A DNA stretch of 64,000 nucleotides, from assembly GCF_013004105.1 (NCBI RefSeq), contig NZ_CP053085.1, positions 4,464,001-4,528,000 on the forward strand, written 5' to 3'. The notes beneath the pieces are model-generated. The model did no database searches and was not told the origin of the DNA. It saw only the letters and a list, made by a program, of their open reading frames with translations. Each line of letters opens with the position of its first letter. Position 1 is the stretch's first letter. Below, piece by piece: positions 16,898 to 23,040 of the stretch. A program made the position numbers and the translations under genes. The stretch is from Gemmatimonas groenlandica. Lineage in GTDB: Bacteria; Gemmatimonadota; Gemmatimonadetes; Gemmatimonadales; Gemmatimonadaceae.

Positions 16898-17755
16898 CTA
16901 GGCACGGAGAAAGTCGAGCAGGTCGTGAGACAGCTGGTCTTTGTGTGTATCGGTAATGCCGTGCGGTGCGCCGGGATACACGATGAGCTTCGCATTCCTG
17001 ACGCGCGCCGCCGACGCTTTGCCGCCAACCTCGAACGGCACCACCTGGTCGTCGTCGCCGTGTATAACCAAGGTCGGCACGTCGATCGCGTCGAGATCGG
17101 AACGAAAGTCCGTCGCCGAAAAGGCCGCAATGCACTCGAGCGCGTTGCGATGGCCCGACTGCATCCCTTGCAGCCAGAACGCGTCGCGCATGCCCTGCGA
17201 TGGGTGCTGCCCATCGCGATTGCCACCGAAGAAGGGCCCGTCGGCGAGTTGCCGATACAGCTGCGATCGGTCGGCGAGGGACGCCGCGCGAATCCCATCG
17301 AACACCTCGATGGGCACGCCGCCCGGATTGTCCGCCGTCTTGAGCATGAACGGCGGAACGGCCGACACGAGCACCACCTTGGCGACGCGCGACGTCCCGT
17401 GACGACCCACGTACCGCGCTACTTCACCCCCGCCGGTGGAGAAGCCAACCAGCACCGCGTCGCGCAGATCGAGTGCCTCGATGAGCGCGGCCAGGTCGTC
17501 GGCGTACTGATCCATGTCATTGCCCTGCCACGTCTGCGTAGACCGGCCGTGCCCGCGCCGATCATGCGCGACGCACCGGAACCCATGACCGGCCAGGAAG
17601 AGCATCTGCGCTTCCCAGCTGTCCGCGTTGAGCGGCCATCCGTGGCTGAATACCACGGGCTGTCCGGCGCCCCAGTCCTTGAAGTAGATCTGCGCCCCAT
17701 CGGCAACGGTGATGGTGGACGCGGCGCGCTGCGCGTCAATCATGCTTTTCGACAT
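16898..17755 (-). CDS. Alpha/beta hydrolase of the non-heme chloroperoxidase/arylesterase type
   Basis: The 285-aa protein shows the alpha/beta hydrolase set: [10 protein letters not shown] oxyanion region, DRRGHGRS, nucleophile elbow GFSTGGG (Ser near residue 107), Asp in [10 protein letters not shown] and His in [16 protein letters not shown] and the N-terminal [11 protein letters not shown] are typical of the chloroperoxidase-like esterases. It starts an operon with the MBL hydrolase. A palindrome lies between this gene and the divergent response regulator. Confidence 0.88.
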
Positions 17756-17869
17756 GGGACCTCCAGAAGATGGCGCGGAAGCTGCCTACCGCGAATGGCT
17801 GACCGTGTGAACGGCTTGAAGCTCCATCGCCGTCGCGGTCCGCGAATCGACCGAGCGGCGTGTTCTTCC

Positions 17870-17890
17870 CTACGTCGACCGACGTAGGCG
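17870..17890. promoter_or_regulatory. Palindrome upstream of the response regulator and hydrolase genes
   Basis: CCTACGTCG and CGACGTAGG form perfect 9-bp arms around AC in the divergent region. The 12-mer CCCTACGTCGAC recurs, inverted, at 22080-22091 upstream of another alpha/beta hydrolase. It is a candidate operator for the adjacent LuxR-type regulator. Confidence 0.5.
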
Positions 17891-17919
17891 GTCCGCGGCG
17901 CGCGAACGTATTATTTCGC

Positions 17920-18552
17920 ATGGCCACGTCCGATGTGATCTCGCTGCTGGTGATCGACGACCATCCGCTGATTCGCGCGGGGTTGGCGGCCGTCATTGCG
18001 GGGCAGCCGGATCTCCGACTCCTCGACGAGGCCGGCGATGGCGCCGCCGCGATTGAGCTGTATCGAACGCATCGGCCGGACATTGTGTTGATGGACTTGC
18101 GCATGCCGGGCATGGACGGACTCACCGCCATCAAGCGCATCCGCGCGGAATTCCCGAACGCGCGCATTATCGCGCTCTCGAGCTACGATGGCGACGAAGA
18201 CATCCATCGGGCGCTGGCGGCGGGCGCCAGTGGGTATCTCCTGAAAGACATGCTCCGTCGGGATTTGCTGCAAATCATTCGGCAAGTGCACAACGGCTAT
18301 CGTGGTATTCCGCCGGCGGTGGCGCGCAAGTTGGCCGAGCACATCCCGCGACAGGAGCTCACACCGCGTGAACTCGAAGTGCTGGCGATGCTGGCTCGCG
18401 GACGGAGCAATCCGCAGATCGCGACGGCGCTGGGCCGCGCGGAGAGCACCATGAAGGTGCATGTCCGCAGCATTCTGCGAAAACTCGGCACCGACGATCG
18501 CACCGAGGCGGTGATGATTGCCGTTCGTCGCGGCATTCTACATCTCGAGTGA
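17920..18552 (+). CDS. NarL/FixJ-type response regulator (REC + LuxR HTH)
   Basis: The 210-aa protein has a receiver domain (residues 6-120) with the acidic pair in IDDHP, phospho-Asp in DIVLMDLRMPGMDG and Lys in LLKDML. A LuxR helix-turn-helix follows (LTPRELEVLAMLARGRSNPQIATALGRAESTMKVHVRSILRKLG). It is the likely DNA-binding partner of the kinase at 18989. I use the ATG at 17920, which gives a standard regulator N-terminus. It converges on a receiver-only gene 15 bp away. Confidence 0.9.
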   Translation: MATSDVISLLVIDDHPLIRAGLAAVIAGQPDLRLLDEAGDGAAAIELYRTHRPDIVLMDLRMPGMDGLTAIKRIRAEFPNARIIALSSYDGDEDIHRALAAGASGYLLKDMLRRDLLQIIRQVHNGYRGIPPAVARKLAEHIPRQELTPRELEVLAMLARGRSNPQIATALGRAESTMKVHVRSILRKLGTDDRTEAVMIAVRRGILHLE

Positions 18553-18566
18553 TGCCGAGGACGGCG

Positions 18567-18947
18567 TTAGCGGTTGAAGACATCGCGAATGAGTGTGGGC
18601 AAATGGGTGCGCAGCTGATCCTTGAGGAGAAACGCTCTCGCCCCCGCGGTGAGTGCGCGTTCGATATCGGCGTCGCCCTCGAATGTGGTCAGCATGATGA
18701 TGCGCGCCGTGTCGTCAAGTGCGAGGAGGGCGCGCGTGGCGGCCAAGCCGTCCATCACCGGCATGCGCAAGTCCATCAACACGATGTCGGGGTGATGTGC
18801 ATCGTACCGCGCCAGTGCCTGTTCGCCGTTCTCGGCTTCGGCCACGACGGTCATGTCAGCGTGACCGGTAAGCAGCGCGGTCAGACCGTCTCGAATCATC
18901 GGATGGTCATCGACGATCAGCACACGAATGGGGTGAGAGTCTTGCAT
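18567..18947 (-). CDS. Stand-alone receiver domain (NarL-type, no output domain)
   Basis: The 126-aa protein has a full receiver domain (IVDDHPMIRDG, phospho-Asp in DIVLMDLRMPVMDG, conserved Thr in IIMLTTFEG, Lys in FLLKDQ). It stops at RDVFNR, where NarL-type regulators continue into a LuxR domain. No HTH is encoded downstream because the convergent regulator gene begins within 15 bp. It is either a true single-domain regulator (phosphate sink or competitor) or one that lost its output domain. It is divergent from the kinase gene. Confidence 0.8.
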   Translation of the reverse strand: MQDSHPIRVLIVDDHPMIRDGLTALLTGHADMTVVAEAENGEQALARYDAHHPDIVLMDLRMPVMDGLAATRALLALDDTARIIMLTTFEGDADIERALTAGARAFLLKDQLRTHLPTLIRDVFNR

Positions 18948-18988
18948 TCCGGATACTGGAGTGCGCGTCCACGTGTGCGCATCCTCAC

Positions 18989-21900
18989 ATGGACGTAGTC
19001 GCGCGTTGGCGTTTGTTGCTGGCGACGAGCACAGCGCTGCTCGCGGGCGCGACATCGTTGTCGGCGCAGCCGTCGGCGCAGTCGTCGGCGCAGTCGTCGG
19101 CGCAGTCGTCGGCGCAGTCGTCGGCGCAGTCGTCGATGCGCCGGCTGGTCGACTTGCATCACACGTCGTGGACGGCGCGCGAAGGGCTACCGGAGTCCGG
19201 TGTGGTGGCGCCGATGCGTAGCCCGGACGGCTATCTCTGGCTCGGGACCAGCGATGCGCTGATACGGTTTGATGGCGTGCGCTTCGTGCGGGTGGACTCG
19301 TCGACGGCGTCGGTGCTGCAGAGTGCGGCCGTGGGATACCTCTCGCCAAAATTGGTGGACCGGGCCGGGCGCTTGTGGATTTCCCGCCCGGACGGTGCGC
19401 TCGTGGTGTACGAACGGGGCGCGTTCCGCGAGGTGCTGAGCGCCGACTCGTCGCGTGGGCCCGTGGCTGAACTCATTGAAGATGGCAACGGTCGACTGTG
19501 GGCACGAGCGCGACGCGTGTTCGTGCTTCGTGGCGGCCGGCCGGAGGCGCCCCCACTTCCGGCGGCGATCGATGCGCGCGAAGTGTCCGGTATCGCTGCC
19601 GACTCCGGCGGCGGCCTTCTGATTGGCACCACGACTGGACAGCTGTGGCATTTGAGCCCGACGGGTGCGATTCGGCTCCCTTCCACGGGGACGCCAAACC
19701 TTCGTCCGTTACTTCAGGATCACGGCGGACGCATCTGGTTCATGCAGAATGGTTTCCAAAGCCAGTTGAACGGCGTCACGACGACCATCAAGCCGCCAAC
19801 GGGCACCGCGAGCGTCGGCGGTACTGTTGCCGCCGAATTGAACGACGGTTCGGTGGTACTGGCGACCCGCGGATACGGGCTGTTGCGCTGGCGTGACGGC
19901 CGTGTGGATCAGTTTTCGGAAGCGGCGGGCCTGACCGATGCCGTCGTGCGTGGGTTGCATCAGGATGACGACGGGAGCTTATGGGTCACGACCGACGCGG
20001 GACTCGATCGACTACGCATTGCGCCCTTCATCACGCTGGGAAAAGGACATGCGCTGCCGTTCCAGTCGCCGACCTCGATTGTGGCGGATGCTGACGGTTC
20101 GCTGTGGATGGCCGCATTCAACGCACGGGCGCTGTATCGGTTGCACGGCGGCGCGGTTCGTGGCGCCGATTCCGCGTTGCGCGTGGACAGTGTTCTGCCC
20201 CCTGGAGACCTGCCGATTCTGCTCGCGACCGCGTCGCCGGCTGGCGGGCCGTGGGTGTACGATCTGCGCCATCAGTTCTATCGCGTGGTCGATGGACGGG
20301 TACGCCCCGTGCCAGGATTGCTGGTGGCATCCAACACCGGCATCCACGCGCTTGAAGATGCGCGCGGTAGCTTGTGGCTCGGCAATTCTCCGACCGGTTT
20401 GCGCATCTGGCGGAACGGGACGCTGACACGACTGGTAATTCCTGATGAGTCGGCGCGTACGCTGATTGTGGGGATCACACAGGATGCGCGCGGCGCCGTC
20501 TGGGTGTCGATGCGCAACCCGAGCCAGCTGATACAGTACGCGAGTGACACCGTCGTGTCGCGCATCACGTCGCCGGGCGGTGCGCGGCTGCCGATGACCA
20601 ATGTGCTGTCGGAGGGGGGCGATACACTCTGGGCGAACGCTGATGGGACGTTGTTGCGCCTCATCGGCACTCGCGCCGCGACGGTGAAGATTCCATCCAT
20701 CGAGCTGCTGCTGCGTACGCCGTATCCATCGCTCCTCGTCGCGGCGGGATATCTGTGGTTCGGCGGTGAATCGGCATTGGGCCGCATTCCGCTCGCCGCC
20801 TTGCATCACGCCGCCGATAGCGCTGGTCGTCCTCCTCCCGTGCCCGAGTTTTTTGGCTCAGCGGACGGACTACGCAGCGCGAAGCTGACCAACTTGATCC
20901 GGAAGTCGGCGGCCACGGCGGCCGATGGACGCTTGTGGTTTGTCACGCCCGCGGGGCTGGCCGTGGTGTCTCCGGCTGAGCTGCGGCGAACGTCTCGAGT
21001 GGCGCGCGCCGTCGTTGAAGAGGTGCGCGTGAATGGGGTCGTCAGCCCGTCGCCAATCATTCCGCCCAATCCCGAGCGCGTGGAGATTCATTTCACGGCC
21101 ACTGAGCTGTTCGCGCCCGAGCGGGTCCACATTCAGTATCGTCTGGACGGTGCCGACGGCGACTGGGTGACCGCCACCGGAACGCGCAGTGCGATGTACA
21201 CGCAATTGCGCCATGGCCGCTATCGCTTTCGTGTGCGCGCGTGGAATGATGATGACGCGACAGGCGCGGAGGCGACGCTCGAGCTGCGAGTGGTGCCAGC
21301 CTGGTATCAAACGTGGTGGTTCGCCGTGGTGCTGGTGGTGACGGTGTTGGCGATCACGACGGCCCTCGTTCGCGCGCGGCTGAAAGAGAAAGAACGGCGG
21401 GCGGCGGAACGACTGCAGGCACGCTTCGACGCGGAACTGTCCGAGCGCACGCGGCTGGCGCGCGACCTGCACGACACGCTCTTACAGGGGCTCACCGGTA
21501 TCACCCTGCAAATTCAAGCGGTGCAGGACTCACTGATCCGCGAGCCAGAGGCGGCGCACACGGCGCTGGGACGAATTCTCGATATGACCGATACGACGTT
21601 ACGAGAATCACGGAGCATGGTGTGGGAGATGCGGGCGCCGGAGCTGAACGCGCAACCGCTGCCGGTGGCGCTGGAGTCGGCGGCGCTGTCGTTGGTAGGG
21701 ACATCGGGTATCGCCCTGACATTCGATGTCACCGGAGCGCCTCATCGTCTCGCGCTCGATACCGAAACCACGATTCTGCGCGTCGGGCGTGAGGCCATCG
21801 CGAACGCGGTACGCCATTCCGGGGCGTCAACGCTGCGCGTGACGTTGTCGTACGAAGCGGCGCGCGTATGCCTGATCGTGCAAGACAACGGCCGTGGCAT

Positions 21901-22057
21901 GAGTCCGGATCAAGAGTCGGTGGGTATTGCCAACGGGCACTGGGGATTGCGCGGCATGCGCGAGCGCGCGACGCACGCGGGCGGAATGCTCTCGATTGAC
22001 GGCGCGAACGGCGATGGGACGACGTTGCTGTTGTGTCTGCCATCGGCGATGTCATAG
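18989..22057 (+). CDS. Sensor histidine kinase with two-component propeller and triple-Tyr domain
   Basis: The 1022-aa protein has a signal peptide (about 1-25), a Ser/Ala/Gln repeat linker and a periplasmic Reg_prop beta-propeller (about 50-690; blades such as DGYLWLGTSDALIRFDG). A Y_Y_Y domain follows (about 695-765), then one membrane helix (about 772-790), a HisKA_3 domain with His in RLARDLHDTLLQG (about 827), and a HATPase_c domain (REAIANAVRHSG, DNGRGM). It senses an extracytoplasmic signal and phosphorylates NarL-type regulators, two of which are adjacent. It is divergent from the receiver-only gene. Confidence 0.93.
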   Translation: MDVVARWRLLLATSTALLAGATSLSAQPSAQSSAQSSAQSSAQSSAQSSMRRLVDLHHTSWTAREGLPESGVVAPMRSPDGYLWLGTSDALIRFDGVRFVRVDSSTASVLQSAAVGYLSPKLVDRAGRLWISRPDGALVVYERGAFREVLSADSSRGPVAELIEDGNGRLWARARRVFVLRGGRPEAPPLPAAIDAREVSGIAADSGGGLLIGTTTGQLWHLSPTGAIRLPSTGTPNLRPLLQDHGGRIWFMQNGFQSQLNGVTTTIKPPTGTASVGGTVAAELNDGSVVLATRGYGLLRWRDGRVDQFSEAAGLTDAVVRGLHQDDDGSLWVTTDAGLDRLRIAPFITLGKGHALPFQSPTSIVADADGSLWMAAFNARALYRLHGGAVRGADSALRVDSVLPPGDLPILLATASPAGGPWVYDLRHQFYRVVDGRVRPVPGLLVASNTGIHALEDARGSLWLGNSPTGLRIWRNGTLTRLVIPDESARTLIVGITQDARGAVWVSMRNPSQLIQYASDTVVSRITSPGGARLPMTNVLSEGGDTLWANADGTLLRLIGTRAATVKIPSIELLLRTPYPSLLVAAGYLWFGGESALGRIPLAALHHAADSAGRPPPVPEFFGSADGLRSAKLTNLIRKSAATAADGRLWFVTPAGLAVVSPAELRRTSRVARAVVEEVRVNGVVSPSPIIPPNPERVEIHFTATELFAPERVHIQYRLDGADGDWVTATGTRSAMYTQLRHGRYRFRVRAWNDDDATGAEATLELRVVPAWYQTWWFAVVLVVTVLAITTALVRARLKEKERRAAERLQARFDAELSERTRLARDLHDTLLQGLTGITLQIQAVQDSLIREPEAAHTALGRILDMTDTTLRESRSMVWEMRAPELNAQPLPVALESAALSLVGTSGIALTFDVTGAPHRLALDTETTILRVGREAIANAVRHSGASTLRVTLSYEAARVCLIVQDNGRGMSPDQESVGIANGHWGLRGMRERATHAGGMLSIDGANGDGTTLLLCLPSAMS
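19061..19132 (+). repeat. 12-bp tandem repeat inside the kinase gene
   Basis: Six units of TCGGCGCAGTCG (first unit with one change) lie end to end just after the signal peptide, coding for repeated SAQS. The unit is a multiple of three, so gain or loss of units would change linker length without breaking the frame. Confidence 0.85.
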
Positions 22058-22078
22058 CTCGACGAGCCGAATACGCCC

Positions 22079-22092
22079 GTCGACGTAGGGAA
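22079..22092. promoter_or_regulatory. Half-palindrome shared with the response-regulator promoter
   Basis: The minus strand reads CCCTACGTCGAC, identical over 12 bases to the site at 17870. It lies about 90 bp upstream of the alpha/beta hydrolase start, a plausible activator distance. Confidence 0.4.
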
Positions 22093-22176
22093 TGACTCTT
22101 CGACGGAACGATTCGACGGAAGTGCGTTCGCGCTACTGTCTGCGGTGAGTCCATACACCTCACCCAGGAGACTACA

Positions 22177-23040
22177 ATGACGGCAGCAGCATCGATCGAA
22201 ACACGCGAAGAGAAGATCGAGAGCATCGGCGGTACGATGATTCACGTCCGGTCGTGGCGACCGGAAACGGCACCGCGCGGCGTAGTGGTGATCTGTCACG
22301 GCGTCCTCTCGCACAGCGGATACTACGGCTGGGCGGCCGAGCAACTCGTCGCGGCAGGATACGCCGTGTATGCGCTCGACCTGCGCGGACGAGGACTCTC
22401 AGACGGCGAGCGCTTCTTCATTCACGCCATCGACGAATACCTCGGCGATGTCGGCGCCACCATCACGCTCGCAAAATCTCGCGAGCCCAGACTACCCGTC
22501 TTTCTGCTTGGTCACAGCGCCGGCGGCGTGATTTCGACGGTGTACGCGCTGGATCATCAGCACGACCTCGCTGGTCTCGTCTGCGAAAGCTTTGCCTTCC
22601 AGGTGTACGCGCCCGACCTCGCGGTGGCCGCGCTCAAGGGACTGGAACACATCATACCGCACGCGCGCGTGCTCAAGCTGCCGATTGATGGGTTCTCGCG
22701 CGACAAGGACGCCGTCGCCGCGATGAAAGGTGACCCGCTGCTGGCCAACGAAGCGCAGCCGATCGGTACCGTGGCCGAACTCGCCCGCGCGGGTGATCGG
22801 CTACGGAAGGAATTCCCGCACTTCACGATGCCCGTGATGATCCTGCACGGCACGGCCGATATTGTGACCAAGCCGGGCGGGAGTCAGCAGTTCTTCGATT
22901 CGGCGGGATCGACGGACAAGACGTTGAAGCTGTACGAGGGACATTTCCACGACTTGCTCAATGACGTGGACAAAGAGCTGGTGATGGCGGACATCACCGG
23001 CTGGATTGTGGCGCGGACGAAGGACGCGGTCGCGCACTAA
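22177..23040 (+). CDS. Alpha/beta hydrolase (monoacylglycerol lipase/lysophospholipase-like)
   Basis: The 287-aa protein has the Hydrolase_4 pattern: VVVICHGVLSHSGYYGWAAEQL, DLRGRGLSDGER, nucleophile elbow LGHSAGG (Ser near 117), Asp in LHGTADIVTKP and His in EGHFHDLLND. No signal peptide is seen, so it is probably cytoplasmic. AGGAG precedes the ATG. It lies just downstream of the kinase gene and carries an upstream motif shared with the response-regulator promoter, so it may be a target of that system. Confidence 0.88.
   Translation: MTAAASIETREEKIESIGGTMIHVRSWRPETAPRGVVVICHGVLSHSGYYGWAAEQLVAAGYAVYALDLRGRGLSDGERFFIHAIDEYLGDVGATITLAKSREPRLPVFLLGHSAGGVISTVYALDHQHDLAGLVCESFAFQVYAPDLAVAALKGLEHIIPHARVLKLPIDGFSRDKDAVAAMKGDPLLANEAQPIGTVAELARAGDRLRKEFPHFTMPVMILHGTADIVTKPGGSQQFFDSAGSTDKTLKLYEGHFHDLLNDVDKELVMADITGWIVARTKDAVAH

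Follow-up and report, generated by a model that had tools for sequence, protein, structure and literature searches.

The heptamer recognized by the response regulator NarL is TACYYMT. Hybrid two-component systems (HTCS) combine a sensor of Reg_prop propeller and Y_Y_Y domains with a regulator in the form of a fused AraC-type domain, and autoregulation is a trait of the VraR/LiaR group of regulators. Inverted repeats of 7-2-7 layout are bound by NarL; one promoter is activated from a single such site immediately upstream of its -35 element, and another has a functional site centered at -44.5 (PMC7419079). The system described here is of a known kind and lies in a 64-kb stretch of Gemmatimonas groenlandica (the window; positions 4464001-4528000 of the 5,179,092-bp single-contig genome, G000), where genes for a NarL/FixJ-type response regulator (P0001), a propeller sensor kinase (P0003), and two alpha/beta hydrolases (P0004 and P0005) are accompanied by two 16-bp dyads, both intergenic and each consisting of two heptamers in inverted repeat with a 2-bp spacer. 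Judged from the sequence, both dyads are probably operators of P0001, the second bringing P0004 under its control. The features of the locus, by window coordinates, are as follows.

16898 to 17755, minus strand: P0005, alpha/beta hydrolase (Pfam domains and structure search), divergent from P0001.
17871 to 17886, no strand assigned: site 1, 7-2-7 dyad TACGTCG-AC-CGACGTA, putative operator of P0001 (sequence and motif model).
17909 to 17914, plus strand: TATTAT, which may be the -10 element of P0001, 5 nt short of the start codon (read from the sequence).
17920 to 18552, plus strand: P0001, NarL/FixJ-type response regulator with receiver and GerE helix-turn-helix (HTH) domains (domain, NCBIfam, and structure searches).
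18567 to 18947, minus strand: P0002, stand-alone receiver domain, no HTH (domain search).
18989 to 22057, plus strand: P0003, sensor kinase with Reg_prop propeller repeats, Y_Y_Y, HisKA_3, and HATPase_c (domain search).
22072 to 22087, no strand assigned: site 2, imperfect 7-2-7 dyad TACGCCC-GT-CGACGTA, putative second operator (sequence and motif model).
22177 to 23040, plus strand: P0004, alpha/beta hydrolase (domain and structure search).

Site 1 occupies the 164-bp gap between the divergent genes P0005 and P0001, ending 33 nt before the P0001 ATG and 115 nt before the start of P0005, with its center 41.5 bp before the P0001 start codon. Its heptamers pair at 7/7 positions and the symmetry extends to 9-bp arms (CCTACGTCG-AC-CGACGTAGG, 17869-17888). 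Site 2 starts 15 nt past the P0003 stop codon and ends 89 nt ahead of the P0004 start, and its heptamers pair at 5/7 positions (counted by eye), giving it the same inverted-repeat layout. An earlier sequence-only reading had proposed a motif shared by the regulator and hydrolase promoters, and exact copies of the 12-mer CCCTACGTCGAC were indeed present at both places (17868-17879, plus strand; 22079-22090, minus strand), 1-2 bases from the positions it quoted and without a third exact copy in the window. The palindrome that it placed at 17870 was recovered with its 9-bp arms, and the inverted copy at 22080 is present, yet as part of an imperfect dyad and not as a bare half. The 12-mer had been misdrawn as the unit of the motif, which is the 16-bp 7-2-7 dyad. 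The whole genome holds four exact copies of CCCTACGTCGAC, the two outside the window (2003728 and 4836844) falling inside open reading frames (ORFs) according to a simple ORF filter; all other gene calls were made with an in-house codon-usage caller. The possible -10 element downstream of site 1 was not picked up by a consensus promoter scan at 17909-17914. Between site 2 and P0004, a direct repeat of TTCGACGGAA was observed in two copies 13 bp apart (22099-22121).

The case for site 1 comes from the upstream regions of related regulators. Regulators similar to P0001 (E up to 1e-62) were found at 31 places in 17 of 179 family genomes, and the motif set, drawn from 32 loci, comprised 33 regulators sharing 50% identity or more with P0001 (the 31 places and two added, one of them a second regulator in locus L187). 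A symmetric 16-bp motif in the 170 nt upstream of these 33 regulators had a log-likelihood of 112.4 compared to 35.6-42.7 in ten Markov-resampled sets. Widths of 14, 15, and 17 gave 76, 56, and 70, respectively, and a 1- or 3-bp center fitted worse; widths of 18 to 22 gave 132-145, higher because flanking bases add information. In 18/33 regulators, 33-36 nt separated the end of the best site from an in-frame ATG or GTG, against a mean of 2.4 and a maximum of 9 for random placement (2000 trials), i.e., a dyad conserved in position as in an autoregulated two-component module. These 18 regulators had C at -1 in 14 cases and G at -2 in 13, and a Shine-Dalgarno sequence was no common feature among them, single purine runs occurring (e.g., AAGG in L174). 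The regulator transcripts would accordingly be read as leaderless, with the operator centered near -42, as far as sequence can tell. The element AAAGGAGG was dropped as a Shine-Dalgarno candidate, as in L094 and L095 at least ~35 nt separate it from the likely ATG.

Sites of at least 12 bits numbered 10 in 340,825 coding nt vs 35 in 59,265 intergenic nt (training sites counted). A general promoter element was dropped as an explanation on this difference in density and on the finding of a site at just 8/225 other genes in the related loci. The genome of G. groenlandica itself contains a second propeller-kinase module (L093), composed of a kinase, a regulator 56% identical to P0001, and an alpha/beta hydrolase of epoxide-hydrolase type. 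Its dyad (4602384-4602399; TACAACG-AA-CGACGTA in the direction of the regulator) ends 34 nt before the regulator ATG. In all, three regulators related to P0001 were noted in this genome (4601729, 79253, and 59465). A kinase search of the genome-contig database returned 44 loci, with at most 29% identity over long stretches.

Half-sites seem to follow the recognition helix of the regulator, in a comparison made by eye and without statistics. The regulators of the window, G166, and G021 have ESTMKVHVR in common and TACGTC-type half-sites, for those carrying EATVKVHVLHI the usual element is CGACGTA or CGGCGTA with T or TTG behind it, and two with DETVKVHLKNIF (L177 and L178) have CTCCCCG-AT-CGGG.AG. 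A single half-site for all related regulators was dropped given the CTCCCCG of the latter two and a CCAAAGGAGG-like element that replaces the TACGTCG dyad upstream of the regulators in L107, L112, and L117. Among more distant regulators (45-50% identical), of which seven of eight loci were read, none had a TA-ended dyad like sites 1 or 2. Four of these NarL-type regulators (L108, L109, L113, and L114) share a 7-2-7-like dyad of their own, GCAA(T/C)TG-NG-CAGTTTC, 74-75 nt ahead of the acidic pair of the receiver. Operator spelling varies among related modules, also inside one genome, and so offers a natural series for the recognition code of the HTH family.

Because of the motif likelihood, the fixed spacing before related regulators, and the half-site trend, site 1 is very probably the operator of P0001 itself. 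It would serve autoregulation, probably by activation, since its center lies 41.5 bp before the start codon and the transcript is taken as leaderless; this would put a P0001 dimer over the -35 region or immediately upstream of it. The divergent hydrolase P0005 may be served by the same site, and through site 2 the regulator would also control the lipase-like hydrolase P0004. P0003 is the likely kinase of P0001, which it would phosphorylate once the propeller domain of P0003 meets a ligand. In this scheme, binding, phosphotransfer, direction of control, transcript start, and ligand are inferred; the dyads, their conservation and constant spacing at related regulator genes, and the hydrolase neighborhood are evident from sequence.

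With the window and its two nearest relatives (G166 and G021) held out of training, the motif model found six window positions of at least 12 bits compared to a mean of 1.8 in 30 Markov resamples of the window; sites 1 (15.1 bits) and 2 (12.9 bits) were the only intergenic ones among the six. The pattern TACGYCSNNSGRCGTA, written to fit both sites, matched four places in the genome and its backwards control one. The sequence-only reading had named random placement throughout the genome as the outcome that would speak against it, and the corresponding search pointed both ways: the dyad TACGTCGNNCGACGTA with up to two mismatches matched 44 places vs 20 for a backwards control (dinucleotides unmatched), but 34 of these 44 matches, and so most of the weak ones, were inside genes. 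The intergenic share was 10/44 with up to two mismatches and 4/6 with up to one, and matches with both outer TAC and GTA intact were intergenic in 6/11 cases compared to 4/33 of the remainder (p 0.008, the split having been chosen after looking). Three intergenic dyads with one mismatch (G000:C1 134702 in L102, 5078306 in L100, and 3614409 in L104) precede genes for an Nramp transporter, a lipid desaturase, and an RCC1-repeat protein (the last 36 nt before an ATG), which are possible distant targets.

The link to hydrolases was seen in position as well as in motif. The divergent order P0005-dyad-P0001, adjoined by a complete or partial propeller kinase, occurred in G000, in G021 of the same genus (hydrolase 86% and regulator 68% identical; the G021 hydrolase frame overlaps an over-long regulator ORF and escaped the gene caller), and, from a different genus, in G166 (79% and 73%); the three gaps were compared by position, as a MAFFT alignment misplaced the G166 dyad. 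The propeller kinase beside the G021 dyad (L096, G021:C1:3924357-3927344) contains one in-frame TGA. P0005-like genes (E up to 1e-85) were present in 19/179 family genomes at one place each. All three with a regulator inside the ~1.5-kb fetched flank carried the dyad (scored at 14.8-17.5 bits by a model whose training data included these three regulator gaps), and 2/16 without a regulator in the flank reached 12 bits (one of the 16 with only 106 nt upstream). Across the 32 loci, alpha/beta hydrolase seeds matched 21/338 genes vs 1/155 control genes of G000, all five seeds having been taken from the loci and two of them picked after the site scores were known; with seeds removed the counts were 16/333 vs 1/155 (p 0.012). 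Pfam confirmed 10/10 of the 21 hydrolases that were submitted.

Upstream sites were counted at a threshold of 12 bits within 200 nt, excluding the training stretches of the regulators and genes with too little upstream DNA. They occurred at 6/21 hydrolases, two of the six labeled so only via seeds chosen after scoring, compared to 2/34 kinases and 8/225 other genes (p 3.6e-4; a single G046 site was counted for a hydrolase and also for the divergent kinase, and two of the other genes share one L188 site). The difference was retained with labels fixed before scoring (4/13 vs 10/233, p 0.0035) and with seeds removed (4/16 vs 8/225, p 0.0047). Separately, strong sites of 16.5-18.2 bits were observed before genes outside the kinase, regulator, and hydrolase classes (L188 6572-6688, L189, and L192). 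The regulon proposed by the sequence-only reading, in which the kinase/regulator pair controls hydrolases, is partly supported, by its operator-like shared motif and by the tie of such pairs to alpha/beta hydrolases by position and motif in several genera, but not by the four other homologues of P0004, none of which has a site in the 260 nt directly upstream.

P0004 homologues (E up to 1e-60) were found in 5/179 family genomes, the window's own counted. In G046, the P0004 orthologue (63-64% identical) lies 55 nt behind another alpha/beta hydrolase gene on the same strand, the first hydrolase of the pair being just 30% identical to P0005 over 122 residues; TACGCCA-AT-CGGTGTA lies between this pair and a divergently oriented propeller kinase and regulator. 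In G105, where the contig starts, a P0005-like gene (62% over 203 residues) precedes the orthologue (69%) by 25 nt. Both hydrolase types that flank the module in the window therefore adjoin in two other genera.

Site 2 is a likely operator for P0004, and the joint reading of both sites has to be set against one in which P0001 acts through site 1 alone, on its own gene and perhaps on the divergent hydrolase, whereas site 2 arose by chance in the gap between kinase and hydrolase. Several observations weigh against the joint reading. The four other P0004 homologues had no site within 260 nt directly upstream (1/5, window only), and site 2 is imperfect, scores 12.9 bits with the held-out model, and lies 89 nt before its gene instead of 33-36 nt. 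A motif search without imposed symmetry reached a log-likelihood of 138 with the shifted one-sided consensus CGAACGGGGTATTGCC, which equals half of the dyad plus downstream bases; the fixed spacing is missing in 15/33 regulators, and for several of them even the top-scoring site is weak (3.6-8 bits in L188, L189, L190, L191, L194, and L197). With up to two mismatches, CCCTACGTCGAC matched 12 times in the window vs 9.1 expected; without an excess, the bare 12-mer was dropped as the unit and the signal is placed in the dyad and its position. Eight non-hydrolase genes also had sites, and the epoxide-hydrolase genes of L093 and L196 had no upstream site of 12 bits (8.0 and -1.3). The single-site alternative draws on the imperfection of site 2, its missing counterparts, and the 34 of 44 matches inside genes. 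Set against it, site 2 is one of just two intergenic sites of at least 12 bits in 64 kb and among the four strict genome matches (to a pattern made with this site in view), and in related loci sites are commoner at hydrolases than at the remaining genes; we consider this alternative unlikely.

That the dyads are operators of a transcription factor other than P0001 would fit the near-perfect copies ahead of the unrelated transporter, desaturase, and RCC1-repeat genes, but appears very unlikely given that the motif stands at a fixed distance before P0001 orthologues and paralogues in different genomes, has the architecture of a NarL-type site, and shifts in spelling with the regulator HTH (by eye). 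A chance repeat or transcript hairpin of no regulatory meaning is scarcely credible: the 12-mer with two mismatches is not commoner in the window than in shuffles, but the fixed position before related regulators and a motif likelihood far over that of resampled sequence contradict chance for site 1, and the hairpin or terminator reading of both sites was dropped after a terminator scan showed no terminator-like site at either.

Domain search confirmed the gene content claimed by the sequence-only reading, i.e., a LuxR/NarL-type regulator (P0001), a propeller kinase (P0003), and two alpha/beta hydrolases (P0004 and P0005). The nearest solved structures to P0005 are chloroperoxidase F and arylesterases and those to P0004 monoacylglycerol lipases. 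P0002, between regulator and kinase, is possibly a phosphate sink or a remnant; its receiver is nearer to a regulator of G004 (65.6%) than to P0001 (51%). The start of the kinase gene contains a 12-nt tandem repeat of 6.3 copies (19060-19135) encoding (SSAQ)n after a signal-peptide-like start. The epoxide hydrolases of L093 in G000 and L196 in G105 are 88% identical; each stands beside a propeller-kinase module together with another small gene and one more gene, all in the same order.

Compared to known systems, the locus resembles NarL with NarX/NarQ in the receiver and GerE (LuxR-type) HTH domains of P0001 (PF00072, 4.9e-29; PF00196, 1.2e-17), the HisKA_3-type core of P0003, and inverted operator heptamers 2 bp apart with TAC outer ends. 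It differs in that P0001, although best matched by the NCBIfam NarL model, scores 170.2 bits under a cut-off of 250 and falls outside the NarL equivalog, that TACGTCG agrees with the NarL heptamer at 5/7 positions (by eye), indicating a different specificity, that P0003 has a propeller sensor and scores far under the NarX and NarQ cut-offs, and that the putative targets are hydrolases and not nitrate respiration. The nearest solved structure to P0001 is a VraR (5hev, E 5.7e-40); the cell-wall stress function and the operators of the VraR/LiaR type would set that group apart. With the HTCS of Bacteroidetes polysaccharide-utilization loci, the system shares the Reg_prop and Y_Y_Y sensor and enzymes encoded next door; unlike them, its NarL-type regulator P0001 is encoded separately, P0003 having no receiver or DNA-binding domain match in the domain search and thus no kinase-regulator fusion, and its neighbors are alpha/beta hydrolases. 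In searches limited to open-licence PMC papers, neither an operator for this kind of kinase in this bacterial group, its variation between modules, nor the hydrolase link came up.

The locus offers a testable operator and candidate targets for propeller/Y_Y_Y kinases with a separate NarL-type regulator, and the natural substrates of the hydrolases might be traced via what switches the kinase on. More tentatively, this bacterial family may carry a set of propeller-kinase/NarL-type modules that work in parallel. Each would be autoregulated through a 7-2-7 operator with constant spacing to a leaderless start, with half-sites matched to the recognition helix and no cross-talk between paralogues, and many would be dedicated to alpha/beta hydrolases of the chloroperoxidase/arylesterase, monoacylglycerol-lipase, and epoxide-hydrolase types. 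If so, these modules would sense esters or epoxides and be the counterpart of the systems by which Bacteroidetes sense polysaccharides.

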